Source: a virus. Taken from it: a DNA stretch of 64,000 nt. Under the pieces are notes generated by a model, which saw only the letters and a program-made list of their open reading frames with translations, searched no databases and was not told the DNA's origin. Position 1 is the first letter of the stretch, and each line of letters starts with the position of its first letter. Below, in pieces: positions 6,615 through 51,899 of this stretch. Location of the stretch: the IMG/VR virus record IMGVR_UViG_3300003177_000020, positions 16,033 through 80,032 of that record; one strand, 5' to 3'. A program made the translations under genes and the position numbers.

Positions 6615-6743
6615 TTACATGTCTCAAATACAGTATTGTTTGATCTCCTCTGGTATGTGCTGCCACCACTGCCAAATAAGTGGAGTTGATCGCTTTAGTT
6701 CCCTTTCTCGGTCAGCTTCACTTCCCCTTTGGGGGTTTTCGTT

Positions 6744-8468
6744 ATGAAACCGTCAAAGCCTGTATTCCTTGAGACAAGACCTCGTATTCCTGAACAGCAT
6801 GATTGCTCTAAATGCCGACTGCACCGCAAAGTTGATGTGCCTTGCATGGATACATTATGGCGTGGTAATGGTGCTATTTTGGCAGTCGGTGTGAATCCAG
6901 ATCCTACAGATGATAAAGAGGGACTTCCGTTTTCTGGTGTGAAAGGAAAAAAGCTCGCATACTGCGCGGATCTGGCAGGTGTAGATGTTGAACAAATATC
7001 CCTTACAAATGTGGTGCGTTGTGCTATTGCAGGAAAAACCAAACCTAAAAAAGATCAATTGGTGGCTTGCGGTGGATACTTGCAATTTGAGATTTTTACA
7101 AAAAAACCAAAAGTGATCCTCGCTATGGGTGATCACGCTGCACAGCTTCTTTGTCCAGACTGGAATTACACGGTGGATGTGTTGGGTAAGGATAAGCGTC
7201 AAAAAAAGAAACTCAAAGAATGGCGCGGATACCCTCAACGCTACACATACGAGGCTGCTGTAGATGGGAAGTATTACACACACACATGCTGGGTGATCCC
7301 GACATTCCATCCAAAATATTGTCTATCTAGTTGGGAACAAGATCCAATTTTAGCTTTCGATTTGAAAACAGCATTTGATTATGTCAGTGGTGTTGAAAGC
7401 ATTGTGAATCCAAATACAAAGATCACCGTGTATCGGGATCTTGCAAGCATTGAATCTTTGTTTTTGTATCTGAAACAGAAGAAAACATATGTGCTGGATT
7501 TGGAAACAACAGGGTTGGATTTTAACAAAGACGAGATCATCAACATTTGTTTTTGCGCAGAAGAAGGCGATGCACATGTGATCCCATTGCTAAGTACATG
7601 CACTCCTGATATTCGGTATTCAAATTTTAATGAATGCGAGATCGAAGAACTGCGTAGCAAATTAGTGGATCTATTTCTGCAAACGGAACTCATAGGTGCA
7701 AACATCAAATTTGACATCAAGTTTATGCGCACGTTTTTAGGTGGGTTCAACTCGTGGCGTATCTTTGCAGACACACAAATCATGCACCACATCGTACAGG
7801 AAAATCATCCTCACAATTTGAATTTTCTTACACAGTTTTATTTACGCTGGGAAAAATACGATGCTGAAATTGATCATTTCAAAAAGCTGGATGAATTGAA
7901 TTTATCCTATGCTCCCGAAGATTTGGTTTCCCGCTATGGTGGCACAGATGTCGATGGTACTTTGCGGGTGTATAATATTCTCAAAAAGATCATAGAAGAT
8001 AAAAAACTCACTAAGGTCTTTCGTATTGAAATGGGGCTGTTGCTTCCTCTCGCAGATTTGGAGTGGGTGGGTGTTCATGCTTCAAGATCAACACTTTCAG
8101 ATTTGGCTATTCGGTACAAAAAAGAAAAAGAAAAAAGTATCAAATACCTGAAGCGAAAGCATCGCGAGATATTTGGAGTTGATGCATCTGAAACATTCAA
8201 CCCTAACAGCAACGAAACAAAGAGTGGGCAGTATATGCTGGACAAGTTGGTGTTGAAAGATCTGGTTGTGAAAGGTGGCGTTCCTGCAACCATCGCAAAG
8301 CATGTGCAGCTGATCCGAAAATACACCAAATACATCTCAACCTATTTAGAGGGTAAGGATGGTGATGGTGGCATCCTAAAACGAATATCATCTGTAGATC
8401 GCATACATCCAGACTACAATATCACGGGTGCGCGGACTGGACGCCTTACAGAAAAGGTGATGGCCTGA
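6744..8468 (+). CDS. polA: UDG-like / 3'-5' exonuclease / family A DNA polymerase fusion (N-terminal part of a broken gene)
   Basis: Residues 1 to about 215 resemble family 4 uracil-DNA glycosylases: paired Cys (CSKC, 21-24), GLPFSGVKGKKL, TNVVRC and the final IPTFHPKY. A DnaQ-like exonuclease follows, with DLETTG at about 252 and IGANIKFDIKF. The polymerase fingers-palm region begins after residue 420 and reaches GARTGRLT. There the frame stops; the next motif of family A polymerases (PNLQNIP) is missing and motif A resumes at 8500 in another frame. UDG-like extensions on phage polymerases are known (from memory, the SPO1 group). The start is the ATG at 6744 after GGGGG. Confidence 0.8.
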   Translation: MKPSKPVFLETRPRIPEQHDCSKCRLHRKVDVPCMDTLWRGNGAILAVGVNPDPTDDKEGLPFSGVKGKKLAYCADLAGVDVEQISLTNVVRCAIAGKTKPKKDQLVACGGYLQFEIFTKKPKVILAMGDHAAQLLCPDWNYTVDVLGKDKRQKKKLKEWRGYPQRYTYEAAVDGKYYTHTCWVIPTFHPKYCLSSWEQDPILAFDLKTAFDYVSGVESIVNPNTKITVYRDLASIESLFLYLKQKKTYVLDLETTGLDFNKDEIINICFCAEEGDAHVIPLLSTCTPDIRYSNFNECEIEELRSKLVDLFLQTELIGANIKFDIKFMRTFLGGFNSWRIFADTQIMHHIVQENHPHNLNFLTQFYLRWEKYDAEIDHFKKLDELNLSYAPEDLVSRYGGTDVDGTLRVYNILKKIIEDKKLTKVFRIEMGLLLPLADLEWVGVHASRSTLSDLAIRYKKEKEKSIKYLKRKHREIFGVDASETFNPNSNETKSGQYMLDKLVLKDLVVKGGVPATIAKHVQLIRKYTKYISTYLEGKDGDGGILKRISSVDRIHPDYNITGARTGRLTEKVMA

Positions 8469-8484
8469 CAATCCTGAAACAGAT

Positions 8485-9318
8485 GTGTTTTTGAGTGTGG
8501 ATTATTCCAAAATGGAATTACGGGTTATGGCTTGGCTTGCGAATGAAAAATTGATGCTTGACGAGTTGCAATCGGATATTGATTTGCATACCAAGATGGC
8601 GGTCACTGCGAGGCTTATGCGTAATCCTACGGACGAGGAATATTATGCGATCTCTCCTGACGTAACATCAAATGAACGTGCGATTGCAAAAGGTGCAAAT
8701 TTTGGCATTCCATACGGTCGCGGTGCAGGTTCCATTGTTGCTGAGAATCCTAATTCATTCCCTGCGAAAATGAAGCACTGGGATCGCATCAAACAGGTTG
8801 ATCGGATCATTGATGCCTACTATGAAAAATATCCAAACATTTATTCATACATGGAAAAGCAAAAAAGGATTGCACATAAACGCATGTGGTTGCGCTCATC
8901 ACAGACAGGCAGAATAAGAAACCTGTATGGTATGCGTTGGTTCAAATCGGAATTTGCAGAAGACTTGGATAAATTTGAGAAAAGATTGATGCAAGGAGAT
9001 ATTGAACACATTGAACGGGAAGCCCAAAATTATCAGATACAAGAAATCGCTTCATCTATTTTGGCAACACAAACACGCATTGTTTACGATGCAATCCAAA
9101 CACGACAACTAGGCATTCGGAATTTCAGGATCGTGCTAAGTATTCACGATCAACTTTTATTCAACTGCCACCGTGAGGACATTCAAAAAGCAGAAGTATT
9201 CGCACGGCAGCATATGGAAATTGTTCTGCCGAAAACAAAAAAGCAGAAGTACGAAATACCGATAACAGTTGATTCCGTGGTGCAGCGGGTATGGGGAGAG
9301 AACGAATACAATGACTGA
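8485..9318 (+). CDS. polA: Family A DNA polymerase, C-terminal catalytic part (broken gene)
   Basis: This part holds motif A (DYSKMELRV), motif B with the R, K and Y/G positions (ERAIAKGANFGIPYG) and motif C as SIHDQLLF, where family A enzymes usually have VHDE. It is the natural continuation of the upstream frame after a frame loss and the absence of about 16 residues. The frame is open from 8461, and a GTG at 8485 is the first possible start, but it has no ribosome site, so separate translation is unlikely. It overlaps the next gene by 8 bases (ATGACTGA). Confidence 0.75.
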   Translation: MFLSVDYSKMELRVMAWLANEKLMLDELQSDIDLHTKMAVTARLMRNPTDEEYYAISPDVTSNERAIAKGANFGIPYGRGAGSIVAENPNSFPAKMKHWDRIKQVDRIIDAYYEKYPNIYSYMEKQKRIAHKRMWLRSSQTGRIRNLYGMRWFKSEFAEDLDKFEKRLMQGDIEHIEREAQNYQIQEIASSILATQTRIVYDAIQTRQLGIRNFRIVLSIHDQLLFNCHREDIQKAEVFARQHMEIVLPKTKKQKYEIPITVDSVVQRVWGENEYND

Positions 9319-15723: not shown

Positions 15724-17061
15724 ATGGGAACGGAAACAAAAAGCAAAAAGCTGTATTCTGATAACGCCAAAGTGATGGAACTAGATCCAAATGACATTTT
15801 GATTTCGTGGCGTGCCAGACGCGACTTCGGAGATATAAAAAGTCTGGCAGAAGATATTCAAACAAACGGGCAAATAGAACCGATTGCTGTTTCTCGTATG
15901 GATGGAGGGTGGTTGGTGGTTGCAGGTTTACGCAGAGCACAAGCGTGTGCATATGCAGGGATTTTGGTCAAGGCTATTGAAATCCACACTACAGATCATT
16001 CGCACCTGCTCCATGTTCAATTCAGTGAGAACTTTTCCCGTAAGAATTTCTCTTTGTTGGAAGTTGGCGAAGCGATCAAAAAGCTGCAAGCCACCTATAA
16101 AAAATCAAACCAAGAGGACAAATCATCCACCGCATTTATCAAGGCAGCCAGTGAGCAATTAGGGTGCAGCCCATCAACGATACGCGATATGCTGAAAATT
16201 GCAGAGATGCCACAGCTTGTAAAACAGAAGATCATATCTGCTGGATCAACAAAACAACAAAACAAAGTGGCTCGCAAAGAACTGGCAGCCAAAAGAAAGA
16301 CTGACAAACGAAAGAAACAACAACAAAAGGTATCTGCCATCTTACAGCACCGCAAAACAAATGCAGATCAATACAAATATTTTTTGTACAATGAAAGCTA
16401 CAAAAAGATGCTGCGAAGACTTCCCAAAGAGTTTTTTGATCTTGTGCTTACAGATCCTCCATTCGAGTTGTGTTGGTCGGAGGTTTCGCACGATACCAGA
16501 AAAGATATCAATGAAAGTTTGTATTGGGATCAACTTGATCTTTCTTGGGTTGATGATGTGATCCCGTATTTGCAGAAAGATTCTTCTGTGCTGGCATTTT
16601 GCAGCGCGGAGTTGATCGGATCATACAAGCAGAAATTTGAAAGTGCTGGCTTGAAATGGCGTGGGCATATCGCATGGCATAAAAGCAATCCATGCCCAGT
16701 ACACCGCAATGTATACGCTTCAAGCATGGAATACATCGTGTGGGCTTCTAAGGGATCACCGTATTTCGAAGCGTGGGAAAATGCAGGTACTCTGGAATGC
16801 CACAACTTCAAACAGTATCCAACATGCAGCGGGAGTATTCGGAACCACCCGACACAGAAACCGATTGCACTTTTGGAAGAATTGTTACTGCGCCATTCTT
16901 TTCCTAAAGCAAGAGTCCTTGATCCTTTCGGTGGATCATTTTCTACCGTGGCAGCGTGTCTAAAACATGATCGTGAATGTCACAGTTCCGAGATTGATAA
17001 CGACTATTTTGAAGATGGAAAACTACTTGTAGCCTCCGTGTTATCGGAGTTGATCGCATGA
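15724..17061 (+). CDS. ParB-like domain fused to DNA methyltransferase
   Basis: Residues 1 to about 200 are ParB/Spo0J-like (SLAEDIQTNGQIEPIAV, AGLRRAQA, then an HTH region with LGCSPSTIRDMLKIAEMP). Residues about 215-445 are a beta-class DNA amino-methyltransferase: the catalytic DPPF at about 244 precedes HPTQKPIALLEEL and the SAM motif DPFGGS at about 400. The ParB fold may recognise DNA or hydrolyse CTP, while the second half methylates A or C. Such fusions occur in phages. The start follows AAGGAG; the gene overlaps the resolvase gene by ATGA. Confidence 0.85.
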   Translation: MGTETKSKKLYSDNAKVMELDPNDILISWRARRDFGDIKSLAEDIQTNGQIEPIAVSRMDGGWLVVAGLRRAQACAYAGILVKAIEIHTTDHSHLLHVQFSENFSRKNFSLLEVGEAIKKLQATYKKSNQEDKSSTAFIKAASEQLGCSPSTIRDMLKIAEMPQLVKQKIISAGSTKQQNKVARKELAAKRKTDKRKKQQQKVSAILQHRKTNADQYKYFLYNESYKKMLRRLPKEFFDLVLTDPPFELCWSEVSHDTRKDINESLYWDQLDLSWVDDVIPYLQKDSSVLAFCSAELIGSYKQKFESAGLKWRGHIAWHKSNPCPVHRNVYASSMEYIVWASKGSPYFEAWENAGTLECHNFKQYPTCSGSIRNHPTQKPIALLEELLLRHSFPKARVLDPFGGSFSTVAACLKHDRECHSSEIDNDYFEDGKLLVASVLSELIA

Positions 17062-20805: not shown

Positions 20806-21726
20806 ATGGCAAAAAGACGAAGCACCAAAAACAAACAAGAAACACAAACTCCAAAAAGCAACACTCAGGATGTCAAACCACTCTACAAAAAGAAACACAA
20901 CATCGAAGACGTGCAGCCATTCAAAGACGTCACAGGCACATCCAGAAAGCTCACAAAAGAGATGGTCATTGCCAGACGTATCCTCGTCCTGCAAGAGTTC
21001 GCCAGAGGCAAAGCACCTGAAGTTATCGCCTACGAAATCGGCACTTCAGAGGAAATTGTACAACGCGAACTCGACATCGCTCTCGAAAAGATCGCAAACG
21101 AATACACGCACGCTTCACCTTCACAAATATTCGCCAAATACGCCACGTTCCAGTTCGGTGTCCTCAATAAGATTCAAAAAGCTTATGAACGCTTTGCTGC
21201 CGATCCCTCCATGAAATCCGCATCCGCACAGATCTCCGCTCTCAAAACTCAATCCGATATCTATGACAAAATTATTCAAAAAGGCGTCGACTTCGGCATT
21301 ATACAAAACAAACGTAAAAAGAAAGCACAAGACCTTCAATCACAAAATCCCGATCAACTCGCTGGCGTACTTCAACAAGAAATTCAAGAAATGATTATCC
21401 TACTCAACGAAATCAACCCAAACGCTGCAAACAAAATTAAACAACAATTCAAACAAGAAAAACAAACACAACCAAAAACACACACGAAACAAAACAACAA
21501 TTCAAAACTTAAACAAATACCAAAACACAAAAAACAACAACTCGACAAATGGATGTTCAAAGGCAACGCTTCACCAGAAATTATCAAAGAACAAGAACTT
21601 CAAAAAGCTCTCGAAATTCAAGTCCAACTACACAAATCTAAAAAAGAAAACAATTCAAGCAATCAAGACAACTCAACAGAACAAACTTCACAACAGACAA
21701 ATACAAACACAGAAACAACAAAGTAA
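20806..21726 (+). CDS. Putative small terminase subunit / HTH DNA-binding protein
   Basis: Residues about 50-90 form a helix-turn-helix (EFARGKAPEVIAYEIGTSEE), followed by a helical stretch and an ISALKTQSDIYDKIIQ helix. This order (HTH, then oligomerisation helices) is that of phage small terminases. The last 120 residues are low-complexity Gln/Asn/Lys/Thr. The coding strand is unusually rich in A and C and poor in G and T, unlike the replication and virion genes, suggesting a different history. The gene lies 22 kb from terL, so the assignment is tentative. Confidence 0.5.
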   Translation: MAKRRSTKNKQETQTPKSNTQDVKPLYKKKHNIEDVQPFKDVTGTSRKLTKEMVIARRILVLQEFARGKAPEVIAYEIGTSEEIVQRELDIALEKIANEYTHASPSQIFAKYATFQFGVLNKIQKAYERFAADPSMKSASAQISALKTQSDIYDKIIQKGVDFGIIQNKRKKKAQDLQSQNPDQLAGVLQQEIQEMIILLNEINPNAANKIKQQFKQEKQTQPKTHTKQNNNSKLKQIPKHKKQQLDKWMFKGNASPEIIKEQELQKALEIQVQLHKSKKENNSSNQDNSTEQTSQQTNTNTETTK

Positions 21727-21809
21727 AAATCAAATATAACAGTAGGACATATAAGAAAAGATCATTTCACATTTATTAGAGATTCATACCAGCTTCATAG
21801 TGGTTTCAT

Positions 21810-21889
21810 GGGGCAGTCATAGGTGGAGTCATCAGTGCTTTACCATAGTGGTATTAGGGGCATTCATAGGTGGCATCATTAGAGCTTTA
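21810..21889. repeat. Degenerate direct repeat, 47-bp period
   Basis: The 33-base units at 21810-21842 and 21857-21889 agree at 27 of 33 positions; shared blocks include GGGGCA, TCATAGGTGG and GCTTTA. Shorter TTCAT and TCAT echoes surround them. Their role is unknown; a protein-binding region near the small-terminase-like gene is one possibility. Confidence 0.5.
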
Positions 21890-22708: not shown

Positions 22709-22758
22709 CTAACTTTTTTTATTTATTTCTTGTATCTGTCATAGGTTAGAGCTACTAT
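22709..22758 (+). promoter_or_regulatory. Phage promoter of the CTAACT/TTTAT/TTGTAA class
   Basis: CTAACT at 22709, then a T-run with ATTTATT, TTGTAT at 22730-22735, a 17-base spacer and TACTAT at 22753-22758. It heads the first of the small early-type genes, whose ATG is 43 bases further on. Confidence 0.7.
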
Positions 22759-25894: not shown

Positions 25895-26225
25895 GAAAAA
25901 CCAAAAGAAAACGCAAGCTTAGAATGCTCTAGCAGAACATCGCTAGGGCTTTTTTTGTAACCACACCATGCCATCCTACAACCACCTACCAGAACATAGC
26001 AAGCGATACAGGCTACACAGCGCGATTACAACAGGCAACATAACCCAACGTACCAATAGCAGCCTAAAACGCCACAAACGCAACATATAGCCTTCCTCGT
26101 ACAAGTTAGAGGCTACCATGCACACCTTCATTCATAGGGGGGGGGATTAGGAGGGGTTACAAAACACAACGGATGCGATCAATTTTGAAATAAGTTCACT
26201 TGCAGTAATGGCACTTGCAGTAAGT
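25895..26225. other. Noncoding gap between convergent regions
   Basis: After the terminator the gap holds a run of nine G (26137-26145) and the start of a 15-bp tandem repeat (26193-26231). I see no gene; a - strand frame from 26344 to 26147 is a shadow of the real gene at 26226. Confidence 0.5.
25926..25956 (+). terminator. Intrinsic terminator
   Basis: GCTCTAGC (25926-25933) pairs with GCTAGGGC (25942-25949), with one G-U pair and an 8-base loop, followed by seven T. It ends the + strand early-type region before the convergent - strand genes. Confidence 0.8.
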
Positions 26226-30681: not shown

Positions 30682-30731
30682 ATAGTAGAGATGATCACTT
30701 CATTTTACAAGAAATAAATAAAAATAGTTAG
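30682..30731 (-). promoter_or_regulatory. Phage promoter of the CTAACT/TTTAT/TTGTAA class
   Basis: Read on the - strand: CTAACT from 30731, ATTTTTATTTATTTC, TTGTAA at 30710-30705, a 17-base spacer and TACTAT at 30687-30682. It is among the best matches in the window and serves the two-gene unit with the AcrVA2 homologue. Confidence 0.75.
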
Positions 30732-38613: not shown

Positions 38614-39072
38614 ATGTTGTCGAATTTGGCAGCCACACTCAGTATGGGATTGATCGCTACCATATGGGGTTCTTTCTTCGGTGCTGTCGCTGTTATTTGG
38701 TCTGTATGGGGCTTGTTGAAGCGATGGCTGGAGGGGAAAGGAATCATCGAAACCACAGATGGGAAGATCGACAAAATCCTGCAAAAATTGGATCAATTGG
38801 TATCTGCCATCGACGCAGACTTTGGAGAAGAAAACCAAATCAAAGATCTGCTGATGAACATCAAATCTATCGTCGATCACCACGATCAACTGCATCGACC
38901 TGTTGAGTTTGGCACTGCTCCGAAAGCGTGGTGCAAGAATGATCAAATTGAGCAGAAGATCTGCGAGTTGGAACACATCACACAAGAGCGATACACCGAC
39001 CTGCATAGGCAAACAAACGAAATCCTGCAGCTGGTATCGCGCATTGTAATTTTGCTTGAACAGACAAGGTAG
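38614..39072 (+). CDS. Membrane-anchored coiled-coil protein (152 aa)
   Basis: Residues about 5-35 form one long transmembrane helix (GLIATIWGSFFGAVAVIW); the rest is charged coiled coil with one Cys. The layout (N-terminal anchor, coiled-coil periplasmic part) is like an inner-membrane spanin, and a putative endolysin lies 1 kb downstream, but no outer-membrane partner is seen. Other anchored proteins are equally possible. Confidence 0.65.
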   Translation: MLSNLAATLSMGLIATIWGSFFGAVAVIWSVWGLLKRWLEGKGIIETTDGKIDKILQKLDQLVSAIDADFGEENQIKDLLMNIKSIVDHHDQLHRPVEFGTAPKAWCKNDQIEQKICELEHITQERYTDLHRQTNEILQLVSRIVILLEQTR

Positions 39073-39082
39073 GAGGCACGAT

Positions 39083-39298
39083 ATGATTGACACTGAAATC
39101 TTAGAACTGCCTTTCGATTTTGATCTGAAAAAGAAGGCATCAACCCCAACAGAAAGATTGAATCAATTATTGCTGCGAAAGTTTGGAGTCAATTATGTTT
39201 TCACTCTGGATGATGGATCACAAGTCTCAATTCAAAAAGTGCTGCGCAATCCCGTCTTGGTATCTCGTATCGCGCAGCAACTTATAAAAAATAAATAA
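39083..39298 (+). CDS. Small unknown protein (71 aa)
   Basis: The start at 39083 follows AGGAGGCACGAT. The product is mixed with a basic C terminus (QLIKNK). It ends the small operon, just before the long noncoding region. Confidence 0.6.
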   Translation: MIDTEILELPFDFDLKKKASTPTERLNQLLLRKFGVNYVFTLDDGSQVSIQKVLRNPVLVSRIAQQLIKNK

Positions 39299-39453
39299 AA
39301 CTACAAACTACACAACAGCCCACCAATACCACACACCAACACAACTGCACGTTACAAATTTTATTTATTTCTGCTAATACACAAAATTGTGGTTGAAAAC
39401 TTGTCAAATTCTAAAATCATGTCAAGTGTTTTCTTTCACGCTTTATTTATTTT

Positions 39454-39483
39454 TTGTAAATAATTATTTAGACAAATTATACA
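39454..39483 (+). promoter_or_regulatory. Possible promoter TTGTAA-18-TATACA
   Basis: TTTATTTATTTT leads to TTGTAA (39454-39459), 18 bases and TATACA (39478-39483), like the recurrent class without CTAACT. It would transcribe into the repeat region, so it could make a noncoding or primer RNA. Confidence 0.35.
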
Positions 39484-39571
39484 CTTACAAGAAAAGTTGC
39501 CTCTTTTTCAAAAAAAGTTGTTGACGCACTTCAAATTTTTCTGTAGGCATTTGATTAATACCTTTTCTCGT

Positions 39572-39585
39572 GCACTGTACAGTGC
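39572..39585. promoter_or_regulatory. 14-bp perfect palindrome
   Basis: GCACTGTACAGTGC is a perfect palindrome, GC-rich within AT-rich DNA, 65 bases before the first G-rich repeat. It looks like a dimeric protein-binding site. Confidence 0.5.
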
Positions 39586-39650
39586 GCGTATGGCTGCTTT
39601 ATGTTGCTAATTGTAATCCGTCCATGCGACTTGCTTAATACTAAACAAGA

Positions 39651-39898
39651 CAAGTGGGTGGGTAAAGTAATCATCAACAACACTTACTACTACTAAATAA
39701 CAAAACAAGTGGGTGGGTAAAGTTAGTCATACAATTCATTATTCATTATAAATAAAACATATATTCTGGGTGGGTAAAGTAATCATTACTAATCATCACT
39801 TTGTATTTGTAATTAAAACTTACAAGTGGTGGGTCAAGCAGATATCAACAATATTTACTCCTTAATCAATTATGACTGGTGGGGGTAAAGTAATCCAT
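39651..39898. repeat. Five iteron-like direct repeats (CAAGTGGGTGGGTAAAGTAATCAT)
   Basis: Units start at 39651, 39706, 39766, 39823 and 39876, so the spacing is 55, 60, 57 and 53 bases. The first three share GGGTGGGTAAAGT and TCAT; the fourth reads GTGGTGGGTCAAGC; the fifth reads CTGGTGGGGGTAAAGTAATC. Secondary TAATCAT and CACTTAC boxes recur between them. Spacing near five helical turns suits side-by-side protein binding, as at an origin or pac site. Confidence 0.75.
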
Positions 39899-40035
39899 TC
39901 TAATCATCTTCACTTAAAACAAATTCATAAAGACAAGCCTTTAGAAATTGGATACAATTGGATCATAATGTGATCTTTTGAGATCATTTCTGCAGAAAGA
40001 ATTTGTAATTAACTTTTGTAAAAGGAACAAGTGAT

Positions 40036-40971
40036 ATGAATGATCGAATGGGATCACCTTTATGTTTTCCAGAATTGTTGATCAAAAAAGTAAAAGGAAT
40101 CATCCGATTATTTGAGACTGGCAGATTAGAAAGCAATTATGATCTTCTTGTGGTGCTGCCAGATGGTGCAGGGATCACATTTGGGGTTGAGCAGACAACA
40201 GAAAACAGCGGTGGTTTGTATCGATTGCTGCAAGTCTATTGTAATCTTGGTGGCAAGTTTGCAGATTTATTTGAACCTTACATGCGATTACTTTATGGCA
40301 GCCCAAAAGGGAAGAAGTGGGCATTGACCAACAATGATGAGTTTAAGGGTCTGCTGACAAGAGCGGTTCATTATGATTCGATCATGATAGCTGCACAGGA
40401 TTTGTATTTTGAAAAAGAATACATGCTGCCAGCCAGTATTATCAGTGGACAGTATGCTCTCACAATGCCTTTGTCTTTTGCGGTTATTTATGATTCGTGT
40501 ATCCATTCTGGTGTTGGGGATTACTTGTCAGAAGAACCACCAAAAAAAGGCACTCCTTGGCATTTGTGGCGATTTGAAGACAAATTGGATGCTGAATGCG
40601 AAGAACATGAAGAAATGGCTTCTATCGGCTCGTGTGAAGTTTTGGCTGGTGATGATTCCGAACTTCCAGATTTTAAATGGGATGATGACGAAGAAGAAAA
40701 AGCATTCATTTCTGGGTACGTGCAGTACAGATTGAATTGGTTGAAAAATCACAACAGGGAAGCTATCCGAGCGACAGCCTATCGCATGTTTGCTTTTCTC
40801 AGAATGATTGAAGCAGATAACTGGGATTTGGAATCTCCTGTTGAAGTTCATATGGCGAGGAATGGTGGATTTTTGAAGAACCCACCTTTGATTACAGATG
40901 GCAGTGTTGCAGGTATTCAAGTTGTGCTTGATGAGCTTATGTGTTCCGATGACGATTATGGTGTGGCGTGA
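40036..40971 (+). CDS. Putative endolysin, chitosanase (GH46)-like
   Basis: The 311-residue protein contains YDLLVVLPDGAGITFG followed by VEQTTENSGGLYRLL and, later, AVIYDSCIHSG. This pattern recalls the phage chitosanase-like (GH46, lysozyme fold) peptidoglycan hydrolases. An acidic insert lies in the middle (DFKWDDDEEEK). There is no signal peptide. It starts after AAAAGGAACAAGTGAT. The assignment rests on pattern memory, and the catalytic residues are not proven. Confidence 0.55.
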   Translation: MNDRMGSPLCFPELLIKKVKGIIRLFETGRLESNYDLLVVLPDGAGITFGVEQTTENSGGLYRLLQVYCNLGGKFADLFEPYMRLLYGSPKGKKWALTNNDEFKGLLTRAVHYDSIMIAAQDLYFEKEYMLPASIISGQYALTMPLSFAVIYDSCIHSGVGDYLSEEPPKKGTPWHLWRFEDKLDAECEEHEEMASIGSCEVLAGDDSELPDFKWDDDEEEKAFISGYVQYRLNWLKNHNREAIRATAYRMFAFLRMIEADNWDLESPVEVHMARNGGFLKNPPLITDGSVAGIQVVLDELMCSDDDYGVA

Positions 40972-43874: not shown

Positions 43875-45356
43875 ATGTCTGAACCGCAAGAATTTACAAT
43901 TGATCCTGTGAGTATCGTTGCTGCTGGTGACATTGGACATATCCGATCTATACGCAGAAAGATTAAAGAAAAAAAAGGTTATCTTGCCAGCCGTGTGATG
44001 GATGTTCAGCAGCGGAACAATGCTGTGATTAAGCAGCTAGTCTTGGAAGAAGACAGGATCGATATTCTTGCGCAGCATGTATTAGGTTATGACCCGCAAG
44101 ACATACATCATGAGATGATGGAGTTTCAAAAAACCCATAAGGAAGGGATGATCCTTGCGTGGCGCGGTGCTGCAAAAACAACTTTTTGTACGATCACATT
44201 TGCTATTTTCAATATCATAAAAAACCCAGATATTCGGATACTTCTTGCTTCATCTGCGATTGATCAAGCGCGTGTGTTCTTGAAGTCGATCAAGTTGCAT
44301 TTTGAGACAAACGAACGATTGATCGAGATCTTTGGTGATTTTTTCACAGGAGCGAGATCGTGGACTGAAACGGATATCATTGTTCCGCAGCGCAGATCGT
44401 TTGCAGGTGAATCCACACTTTTGGCTACAGGTATCGGGACTGCGTTACCATCACGTCACTTTGATTTGATCATTGCAGATGACCTTGTTATTCGAAAAAA
44501 TGCCCAAACTGAGCATCTTAGAAAAAAAGTTCATCAGTATTTTTACGAGACTCTGTATCCCACACTAGAATCACCTGATGGCAGACTTTATGTGTTGGGT
44601 ACGCGGTGGCATGAAGAAGATCTGTACAAGTGGTTTGCCGATAATGATTACAAAAACGATCATTTGATTATCAGTGTTTTTGATGAGGATGGTGAGTCAC
44701 GGTGGGCAGAAAAATATCCTAAAGAAAGAATGCAAAAGATCCAACGTGCAAATCCAGATGCTTTTGATCTCCAATACATGTGTCAAACTGGCGCGACGCA
44801 GGGTACAATTTTTACTGAGCATCATTTCCAATATTACGAGGAGTTACCAGCGGGTGTTAGGATTTGGCAGGGTTTGGATTTGGCTATCGGTACAGCTGCA
44901 CACAATGATTTCTTTGCGCACGTTACGATTGCTGTTTGTCCTGAAACAAAAGGTGTGTATTTGGTGTCGTTTCGTTTGAAAAAGTTACAATTCCCACAGC
45001 AAGTAAATTTTATTCGATCACGGTTTCAAGACTATCCTGATACTCAAAAAGTGGTTCTTGAAACCAATTCATATCAAAGGGCAATGTTTCAGCAGTTACG
45101 TCATCAATTCCCTGATATTCCTGTTCTTGGAATACAGACAACAAAGGATAAAATTGCTCGCGCACAAAAGCTGGCTTGGAATGCTACATCCAATCCGATA
45201 TATGTGTTGGAGCGTCATTATAAATTCGTGAAGTTGTTTCTAGGATTCCCACATATTAAGGGATCAAAAGATTTGTTTGATGCATTTGATATTGTCTATA
45301 CACAAGCCACCAAAAAAAGCCGTAGAAGGCGTCGCAGCACACCGTCTTTGATCTAA
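43875..45356 (+). CDS. terL: Terminase large subunit
   Basis: The 493-residue protein has the ATPase motifs AWRGAAKTT (Walker A, about 95-103) and DLIIADDLV (Walker B, about 196-204), an RLYVLGTRWHEEDLY coupling motif, and RNase H-like nuclease acids in WQGLDLAIG (about 333), VLETNS and DLFDAFDIV. The C terminus is Arg-rich (KKSRRRRRS). It translocates DNA into the prohead and cuts the concatemer. It starts 2 bases after the antirepressor-like gene. Confidence 0.92.
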   Translation: MSEPQEFTIDPVSIVAAGDIGHIRSIRRKIKEKKGYLASRVMDVQQRNNAVIKQLVLEEDRIDILAQHVLGYDPQDIHHEMMEFQKTHKEGMILAWRGAAKTTFCTITFAIFNIIKNPDIRILLASSAIDQARVFLKSIKLHFETNERLIEIFGDFFTGARSWTETDIIVPQRRSFAGESTLLATGIGTALPSRHFDLIIADDLVIRKNAQTEHLRKKVHQYFYETLYPTLESPDGRLYVLGTRWHEEDLYKWFADNDYKNDHLIISVFDEDGESRWAEKYPKERMQKIQRANPDAFDLQYMCQTGATQGTIFTEHHFQYYEELPAGVRIWQGLDLAIGTAAHNDFFAHVTIAVCPETKGVYLVSFRLKKLQFPQQVNFIRSRFQDYPDTQKVVLETNSYQRAMFQQLRHQFPDIPVLGIQTTKDKIARAQKLAWNATSNPIYVLERHYKFVKLFLGFPHIKGSKDLFDAFDIVYTQATKKSRRRRRSTPSLI

Positions 45357-49261: not shown

Positions 49262-49325
49262 TCATATTTGCAGATTATTTACACTGTGGATAAAATAGCG
49301 TTGTTTCTTATAGGGAGTTATGATT

Positions 49326-50843
49326 ATGGTTTCTGTGCAACAAGTGGTTGAGAATATTGCGGGTGCGAGTTCGGATGAGTTGATCCAAGCTCACAACGAG
49401 CTACATGCTATCTGGAAGTCTGGTGATGTGGAAGTCGAGCAAGCTGCAAAATTCAACGCAATTATTCGCGCTGTGCTGATTGAGAAGAATATCGCTCCCA
49501 CCGTGATCGATTCGGATTTGGATATGAGATCTGCAATCTGGATGGAAGAATCATCTTTATTTGATGTTGACAGTTCACCTGTTCACAAGATCCTTGCAGG
49601 TGAGAAACTGCAAATTGAAAAGGGTATTGGTGCCCAACTGTGGGGAAGTCCTGCTGGTAAAAGTAATATCGCAAAAAGGCTGCTTCCTATGTTCCCAGAA
49701 CATGATGCTTACACTGAATTGTTTTTTGGTGGAGGTGCTTTGTTTTGGGGTAAAGAAAAAGTTGAAACTGAAGTTGTGAATGATTTTGATGAAGAAATCG
49801 CATTTGCAATTAAGTTCACACGAGATATGACAGACGCAGATATTGAAAAGCTGAAAAAGATGAATTGGAATCCTATCAGCAAAGAAGAATGGGTGCGTTT
49901 GTTTAAGAGTGAACCTACAGATCCATTAGAGCGATATTATCGTTTTTTGAAAGTTCGTGTTTGTAGTTTCATGTCTCGTGGTTTGACTTTTTCTCCACAA
50001 CATTCTGGCGGTAAAAATATCCCTAAAAAGTTGGAACGTGCGCGGGAAAAGCTATCTGGTGTTCGTGTTTTCAATACTTCGTATGCGGATATAATCAAAC
50101 AATATGATAGCCCAACAGCTTTTCATTTCCTTGATCCTCCATATGTTAAGACGGATCAAGGTGTAGGTGAGAAGACATTTGATCACGAGCAGTTTTGGGA
50201 TATTTTAGCATCTCTTGATGGTAAGTGGATGGTGACATATCATATGTCACCATTTGATATGTTCGATGGTAAGTTCAAAGGTAAAGATTGGACTGTTGTT
50301 GAGATGGGGCATAGTCGCACGCGTGGTACTTCAGGGAATGGGGAGTACACAACAATTGTGACCATGAATTATCAACCCACAGAAGACCAGATCAAGTTTT
50401 GCACTACGAAACCATCAGATCGTCAAAAGGTGAAAAAACACGAGGCAGAAGACAACACTGATGTTTTGCGTTGGATACCTATTACAAAATCAGATACAAC
50501 ATCAGGTGATGCGCAGATTGTTATGGGTGTCGTGTTGGAACCTGATGGTGTGGATGCGCATGGGGATACGATTTCAGCACAAGAGATTGAAGATGCTGCG
50601 CACCAGTGGCTTGCAAAGTTTCAAAATGCAGGACTCATGCACTCTCGTCTTGTGAATGAAAAAGTGGAGTTGTACGAGTCTTATATTGCTCCTGTTGATT
50701 TTGAAATAGGCAGCGAACAAGTGAAGGCTGGTTCTTGGATTCTTGTCTATCATGTGCTGGATTCGGATTTATGGGCAGCAATTAAAAGTGGTGAATTAAC
50801 AGGATTTAGCATGGGTGGTTTTGCGCGACGTGTTGATCCTTGA
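49326..50843 (+). CDS. Dam-type DNA adenine methylase fused to XkdF-like prohead protease
   Basis: Residues about 100-350 are a D12-class (Dam-like) N6-adenine methyltransferase: GSPAGKSNIAKRL for the SAM site, ELFFGGGALFWGK, and DPPY at about 270. Residues about 375-505 are an XkdF-like prohead protease: WIPITKSD, GVVLEPDGVDAHGDTIS, a GLMHSR His, and GFSMGG near the end with the likely nucleophile Ser. The first 45 residues are a separate helical piece. The ATG at 49326 follows GGGAG with better spacing than 49320. Confidence 0.85.
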   Translation: MVSVQQVVENIAGASSDELIQAHNELHAIWKSGDVEVEQAAKFNAIIRAVLIEKNIAPTVIDSDLDMRSAIWMEESSLFDVDSSPVHKILAGEKLQIEKGIGAQLWGSPAGKSNIAKRLLPMFPEHDAYTELFFGGGALFWGKEKVETEVVNDFDEEIAFAIKFTRDMTDADIEKLKKMNWNPISKEEWVRLFKSEPTDPLERYYRFLKVRVCSFMSRGLTFSPQHSGGKNIPKKLERAREKLSGVRVFNTSYADIIKQYDSPTAFHFLDPPYVKTDQGVGEKTFDHEQFWDILASLDGKWMVTYHMSPFDMFDGKFKGKDWTVVEMGHSRTRGTSGNGEYTTIVTMNYQPTEDQIKFCTTKPSDRQKVKKHEAEDNTDVLRWIPITKSDTTSGDAQIVMGVVLEPDGVDAHGDTISAQEIEDAAHQWLAKFQNAGLMHSRLVNEKVELYESYIAPVDFEIGSEQVKAGSWILVYHVLDSDLWAAIKSGELTGFSMGGFARRVDP

Positions 50844-50858
50844 ATATAGAGGTTTGTG

Positions 50859-51899
50859 ATGGCTGGTAACAACGCGGATGCTGCATTGGAAGATTTGGAA
50901 GTCCAAGAAGTTTCTTTTGTAGATGCTCCCGCAAATCGAAGAAAATGGTTAATTACGAAAAAGGAGGGCATTATGCCTCAAGGTGGGATTCTAGATATGC
51001 TTGGTTTTAAAGATAATGCACCAAGCAATGCTGTCGTGAAGCTGGAAGGATCGGACATGAAAATCAAGATCAACAAAGCATTGCAGCCTCAAGTTGAACA
51101 GATTCTTTCCGCAGCATTGGAAAAAATGACGAGTGTTGCTTCCAATGTTCCTGTTGATAAGGCAGAAGTTCCAGACGAGTGGTTGCAGCAGTTGTTTGAA
51201 GCACAGGCACAACTCGCAGCATTGCTTGAAGCCCTTTCAGGTGATGAGCCTCCATCTGAAGAATCCACAGATCCAAGTGAAGATTCAGAGATGGATAAAA
51301 TGGTGAAAGCTATTTCTGCTGGATTGTTGGAATTGGTCAACAAAGTCAAATCGGTGGACAAGGCTGCAACAAGTATTCCTTCAGAGATTCTCAAAGATCT
51401 TAATGCATTGGTTCAGAAGTTTGCTGCTGTGAAAAAAATGGCTGAGAAACCTGCGGGTGGATCTGGTTCTAGTGCTGATGGCATGGATGAAGAAGATCAA
51501 CAAAAAGACAAGCGAGATCATGTTGCAAAACTTGAAGTTTTCAAAGGCAATGGATCTGATGTTGTGTTGAAGCGTGGCGATAACTTGGTTACAACAAATG
51601 TTTCTGAGTTGGAAATCTTGCACAAAAATATTGTTGGTGTTCTCCAGCAAGTTGGTGGCTCCGTTTCAATCACAAAATCTTCTGACAGTGTTGATCGTAA
51701 TAGTTTGATTGAAGGTTTCGGGAAAATGGAAGAAATTGTCAAATCGACTGTTGGTGAATTGAAAACGGCAATTGCTGGTGTTCAAGAAAAAATTGAAAAA
51801 CTGGATGGTATTCATGGTGGTGGTAACGCTGCTTCTTCTGAAGAAACTCCATCCAGTGAAATCAAGAAGAATAACTCGATTTGGAATGGGATCTTCTAA
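50859..51899 (+). CDS. Scaffold-like prohead core protein
   Basis: The protein starts with VQEVSFVDAPANRRKWLITKK, the segment that usually follows the XkdF protease, then has acidic and coiled-coil parts (residues about 80-300) and ends SIWNGIF. Placement between protease and capsid genes, length (346 aa) and helical charge fit an internal scaffold that the protease would remove. The start is the ATG at 50859. Confidence 0.75.
   Translation: MAGNNADAALEDLEVQEVSFVDAPANRRKWLITKKEGIMPQGGILDMLGFKDNAPSNAVVKLEGSDMKIKINKALQPQVEQILSAALEKMTSVASNVPVDKAEVPDEWLQQLFEAQAQLAALLEALSGDEPPSEESTDPSEDSEMDKMVKAISAGLLELVNKVKSVDKAATSIPSEILKDLNALVQKFAAVKKMAEKPAGGSGSSADGMDEEDQQKDKRDHVAKLEVFKGNGSDVVLKRGDNLVTTNVSELEILHKNIVGVLQQVGGSVSITKSSDSVDRNSLIEGFGKMEEIVKSTVGELKTAIAGVQEKIEKLDGIHGGGNAASSEETPSSEIKKNNSIWNGIF

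Follow-up and report, generated by a model that had tools for sequence, protein, structure and literature searches.

The origin of phage lambda contains four tandem iterons, P1 carries RepA iterons, and plasmid iterons are usually near-contiguous. In Bacillus phage SPP1 the initiator, gp38, is known, and oriL lies inside its gene. Both SPP1 origins, oriL and oriR, combine direct repeats with an AT-rich unwinding element (PMC6316719). The pac site of SPP1, a short DNA region bound by the small terminase at more than one place, overlaps terS (PMC6316719). Finally, stoperators of the mycobacteriophage L5 type are asymmetric repressor sites in one orientation (PMC9283540), scattered along the genome.

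Our analysis of a 64,000-nt window (bases 16033-80032 of G000, an 80,032-base IMG/VR contig of an uncultured phage; positions below are those of the window unless G000 is named) revealed an intergenic repeat array comparable to these systems. Like SPP1 oriL/oriR, it consists of direct repeats beside an AT-rich element in a tailed phage, a likeness of layout; unlike them, it has no recognised initiator beside it. With lambda-type and iteron-plasmid origins it shares oriented multi-copy sites, here putative binding sites, and an AT-rich neighbour. However, the lambda and plasmid iterons follow one another almost without gaps and are linked to the initiator gene, whereas here a 15-bp core occurs every 52-59 bp between genes. 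Judged by these features, the gap at 39299-40035 is a candidate iteron-type replication origin, an assignment in which we place middling confidence.

The tail, capsid, portal, TerL and holin genes, together with a replication gene set, mark the contig, as far as gene content goes, as a myovirus with its own replisome. The replication set comprises a DnaG/DnaB-like primase-helicase, PolA, a 5'-3' exonuclease, RecA and an SbcC-like protein; since the phage encodes its own replisome, a start site for it is needed. PolA is split: 6729-8468 encodes uracil-DNA glycosylase, a 3'-5' exonuclease and the start of PolA, and 8485-9318 the rest. In 49320-50843 a DNA methyltransferase domain is joined to a head-maturation-protease domain, and the next ORF (50856-51899) carries a further piece of a protein of that protease family, in swapped order.

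The gap that holds the whole feature (Table 1) is the longest ORF-free stretch of the contig, as the sequence-only reading had claimed, and contains no ORF longer than 50 aa, no Rfam match and no tRNA. The five G-rich repeats of that reading were found as well. Their cores (15 bp, four variants in five copies, two of them degenerate) span 39655-39892, all on the same strand, with the consensus GTGGGTGGGTAAAGT; GGTGGGTAAAGT occurs exactly at 39657, 39712 and 39769, and with two changes at 39828 (GGTGGGTCAAGC) and 39880 (TGGGGGTAAAGT). The spacing measures 55, 57, 59 and 52 bp from core to core, where that reading gave 53-60. At up to two mismatches GGTGGGTAAAGT has seven matches in 64 kb versus 2.7 expected, the five of the array sharing orientation and spacing. 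Nowhere else in the whole 80-kb contig does an exact 12-mer occur three times within 300 bp, and when the gap was dinucleotide-shuffled 2000 times, only 8 of the shuffles contained any 12-mer at least three times. Scoring the best 12-mer family with up to two mismatches, a looser test, was not very discriminating, with five copies reached in 1 of 200 shuffles.

Table 1. Coordinates of the array, its surroundings and the candidate packaging elements in the window
Feature	Position	Strand	Remark
Probable small terminase gene	20806..21726	+	homologue in G002 directly upstream of TerL
Imperfect direct repeat, alternative pac candidate	21796..21889	+	33 bp at 85%, 47 bp apart; just downstream of 20806
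Flanking gene, hydrophobic N-terminus	38614..39072	+	PHROG matches weak only
Flanking gene, 71 aa, without family	39083..39298	+	-
ORF-free gap holding whole feature	39299..40035	.	largest of contig; 737 bp
AT-rich segment, candidate unwinding element	39349..39560	.	GC 0.25, lowest 200-bp window of contig; directly left of array
TTTATTTATT element	39360..39369	+	also at promoter-like sites 22718, 23956, 25509, 30722(-)
Second TTTATTTATT element	39442..39451	+	-
Perfect palindrome GCACTGTACAGTGC, possible operator	39572..39585	.	14 bp; genome-wide not significant
Unit 1	39655..39692	+	core GTGGGTGGGTAAAGT, then downstream AATCATCAACAACACTTACT
Unit 2	39710..39747	+	core GTGGGTGGGTAAAGT
Unit 3	39766..39804	+	core CTGGGTGGGTAAAGT, then AATCATTACTAATCATCACT
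Unit 4, degenerate	39825..39863	+	AGTGGTGGGTCAAGC, then AGATATCAACAATATTTACT
Unit 5, degenerate	39877..39915	+	TGGTGGGGGTAAAGT, then AATCCATTCTAATCATC
GATC cluster	39961..40055	.	kind recurs in several other intergenic regions of phage
Flanking gene, glycosyl hydrolase family 46-like (GH46)	40036..40971	+	Pfam PF01374, 28.9 bits (cut-off 27)

The units also resemble each other in the columns that follow the core (+1 to +34; shuffle P <0.005), especially unit 1 with unit 4 and unit 3 with unit 5, while the upstream flanks show no likeness between units (shuffle P 0.18). Because the similarity runs about 34 bp beyond each core, the array is, on alignment of its units, a degenerate tandem repeat with a unit of about 55 bp, in which the core is best preserved. 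The TAATCAT boxes previously noted between the repeats are present (4 of the 12 copies in the window lie within the array), but by the same alignment they are part of the 55-bp unit and not separate boxes. On the plus strand the spacers are G-poor (7 G in 180 bases) and the cores G-rich (36 G in 75). A CRISPR mini-array, defined by near-identical repeats of at least 23 bp with unrelated spacers, was considered and rejected, as the core is shorter and variable and the spacers resemble each other. The degeneracy of the units, and a sequence private to this phage, would also suit a functionless, neutral remnant of tandem duplication; such an origin of the array is highly improbable, as the 15-bp core has been preserved far better than the remainder of the period, which suggests selection on the core.

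The G-runs had further been proposed to form G-quadruplexes in pairs, and GGGTGGG does occur in three units and GGTGGGGG in one. This idea failed: the G4Hunter maximum in the array is only 1.0 (at least 1.2, with four close G-runs, is the criterion) against 2.24 at 26134, and about 40 bases separate the cores. DNA and RNA folds are no better than those of shuffles (z -0.25 and -0.47), which, with the absence of an Rfam match, speaks equally against a structured RNA, so that either kind of element is scarcely credible here. The strongest G4Hunter score of the contig belongs to GGGGGGGGGATTAGGAGGGG at 26130-26165.

The adjoining AT-rich segment was borne out: at 200-, 300- and 700-bp resolution alike, the lowest GC content of the contig falls in the gap. 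Two smaller elements thought to be part of the layout are not special: GCACTGTACAGTGC is one of nine perfect palindromes of at least 14 bp in the contig, and the GATC density at the gap (8 in 250 bp) is equalled at 44150 and nearly reached, with 7, at many other places. By their distribution, the GATC cluster and the TTTATTTATT elements look like general regulatory elements of the phage. A recurrent intergenic element, CTAACTTTTTTTATTTATT..TTGTA, was found at 22712, 23950 and 25503 (+) and at 30728 (-), with GTGATCTG clusters close by, and is likely an early promoter/operator module of the phage.

The array ends about 130 bp before the start codon at 40036. For this reason, and because the gap has the TTTATTTATT and GATC-rich elements in common with other promoter-like intergenic regions, the main rival to an origin is a multi-site regulatory array, in which a phage DNA-binding protein on the five sites would control the promoters of the gene at 40036 (+) or of the flanking genes. 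The binder could be, for example, the ribbon-helix-helix (RHH)-like protein of 33924 (-) or that of 42018 (-), or else a repressor counteracted by the Ant-like protein of 43066. In other phages, relatives of the 42018 (-) protein, RHH-like by inspection, sit at the same place upstream of TerL; the present phage also encodes a P22_AR_N antirepressor domain, and stoperators provide a precedent for asymmetric repressor sites in one orientation (PMC9283540). However, stoperators are scattered, whereas the array word forms a single cluster, with none elsewhere in 80 kb; sigma-70-like matches in a promoter scan were at chance level; and the array, at 250 bp and with its long spacers, is big for an operator. 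Regulation by such an array is thus possible but on the unlikely side.

The origin reading is favoured because the five oriented repeats are unique in the contig and because its lowest-GC windows and its largest ORF-free gap coincide there. Of the features usual for iteron origins, the array has at least three direct repeats in one orientation within a short region and, by composition of the left-hand 200-bp window, an adjacent AT-rich element. DnaA boxes, which are common but not obligatory, are missing: the gap contains neither a perfect box nor a one-mismatch version of TTATCCACA. Spacing of 52-59 bp, wider than that of usual plasmid iterons, and the lack of helical phasing also argue against an origin. 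No gene beside the array matches a replication-initiator family (Pfam, PHROGs); an unrecognised initiator among the neighbours is possible, several of them lacking a functional assignment.

Gene direction changes around the gap. To its left, a mostly leftward early block (26-38 kb) is followed by two small rightward genes, and to its right lie the GH46-like gene, leftward ThyX, and then the Ant-like, TerL and structural genes. Inspection of GC skew over 39-40 kb, proposed as a check, did reveal a local minimum of the cumulative skew at the array (G000 55 kb), between the leftward genes (26-38 kb) and the rightward genes. Gene orientation can explain this minimum, and a replication cause is weakened by the 4-fold-site skew of leftward genes, -0.09 left of the array and +0.08 right of it (n=50), no measurable difference. 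From the oriented repeats, the AT-rich neighbour, the lack of coding or RNA structure and the change in gene direction and skew, we infer how an origin at this site would work: a phage- or host-encoded initiator would bind the five same-strand cores cooperatively, melting by the initiator-core complex would open the AT-rich segment next to it (about 39350-39560), and the phage primase-helicase and PolA-type replisome would then load there.

Packaging offers another explanation of the repeats, in which the small terminase would bind them and headful packaging would start at the array. The array is 4.0 kb upstream of TerL, and a probable small terminase is encoded at 20806, at a great distance from TerL, an identity supported by the position of its homologue in G002 directly upstream of TerL. 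A low-confidence model of this protein contains an HTH and a helical hairpin; a structure search with it gave no significant match, the HTH part alone resembling known ones. Moreover, the final 53 bases of the contig (G000:79980-80032) repeat bases 1-30 and about 68-90 of its beginning (G000:1-90), leaving out some 37 bases, and the genes at the two ends are neighbours in relatives; therefore, the map is probably closed as a ring and nearly complete, with the break within the tape-measure gene, as in circularly permuted genomes. A closed map, however, indicates only permutation or circular replicating DNA, not a packaging start. The pac site of SPP1 overlaps terS (PMC6316719), whereas 18 kb separate the array from the probable terS, which has its own direct repeat downstream; this distance and that repeat make a pac site at the array less likely, and a strong AT-rich neighbour is unnecessary for pac. 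We consider a pac site here improbable. Thus, of the layout suggested by the sequence-only reading, a replication origin or a pac site, the origin half agrees with the repeats, the AT-rich segment, the direction change and the skew minimum, and the pac half is weaker.

Oriented intergenic repeats are also expected of a partition centromere (parS/parC-like) of a plasmid-like prophage state, and the phage encodes RHH-like proteins and, at 15724, a ParB_N domain. However, the latter is fused to a methyltransferase, no ParA, ParM or TubZ was found among the genes scanned, and no lysogeny module was recognised, so a centromere is very unlikely.

Relatives were collected with the capsid gene (13 IMG/VR loci) and by TerL alignment (80 loci); the GH46 gene as bait found none. 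The word with one mismatch is absent from the 13 capsid-set records, and no counterpart emerged when 1.8 Mb of related phage sequence was scanned by alignment. Exact matches in IMG/VR viral contigs were 17 single ones, without clusters and at about the chance level, and the paired word had none in viral contigs. Its 13 matches in genome contigs were dismissed, since the sequences are unrelated and in many cases tandem repeats. An apparent similarity to G003 (GGTAGGATAAAGTAATCC) and to the GGTAGGATAA array of G023 was dropped, the score in the 1.8-Mb scan not exceeding background, and GGGGnGGGGGGAaGTGAAAA, common to L070 and L073, was set aside as post hoc. By these searches the repeat word is private to this phage, while the general layout of direct repeats with an AT-rich element is already a known kind.

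Absence of the repeats from relatives was to count against the proposed function; the sequence is indeed absent from them, but structures of this kind are not. Among nine large family genomes, the top direct-repeat window is also one of the top-3 AT-rich windows in four (G000, G023, G030, G009; 0.33 expected, P 2e-4), in a test devised after looking at the genomes, five of which do not show the coincidence. The repeat differs in each of the four, as it would if every initiator recognised a site of its own, and the array lies 62 kb upstream of TerL in G009 and 4-11 kb upstream in the other three. The coincidence is suggestive only, since the test is post hoc and gene context differs between genomes. 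Dense arrays at the AT minimum were seen at L050:17490-17830 (G009) and G030:82.9-83.4 kb, and the AT-rich gap of G023 (L169:453-830) contains at least 12 words resembling GGTAGGATAA, which occur in both orientations and several of which recur with a perfect period of 30 bp. In G020 (four copies of CGCTTACATTATT), G019 (repeats spaced 44 bp) and G005 (CCTAAAACC repeats) an AT-rich gap with repeats lies 5-9.5 kb upstream of TerL, and an AT-rich gap of L137 contains 130-bp units. As AT-rich repeat arrays thus occur in several relatives too, the origin half of the layout fits.

More speculatively, and with considerable doubt, phages of this TerL/capsid family might each carry one AT-rich private repeat array as the origin for a conserved PolA/primase-helicase replisome, the repeats being rapidly replaced and site and initiator co-evolving or being swapped as a cassette; the present phage would then have a new kind of initiator whose sites are widely spaced, at about 55 bp. 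The origins of most uncultured myoviruses are not known, and the 737-bp candidate makes origin use and initiator identity testable for phages with a PolA/primase-helicase replisome but no recognisable initiator. The coincidence of repeat maximum and AT minimum provides a repeatable way to find such sites in relatives. Should it be a set of operators instead, the array marks the phage's regulatory hub.

Avoidance of restriction sites is extreme over the 80 kb of G000 (including window position 8462), with no CCGG (75 expected) and one GGCC (78 expected); GGATCC, CGATCG, GAATTC and GCATGC are each absent, against 17-31 expected. The CCGG/GGCC avoidance is not found in relatives, one of which, G027, strongly avoids TTAA (36 versus 330 expected). 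In G000 it provides a clue to the restriction systems of the host.
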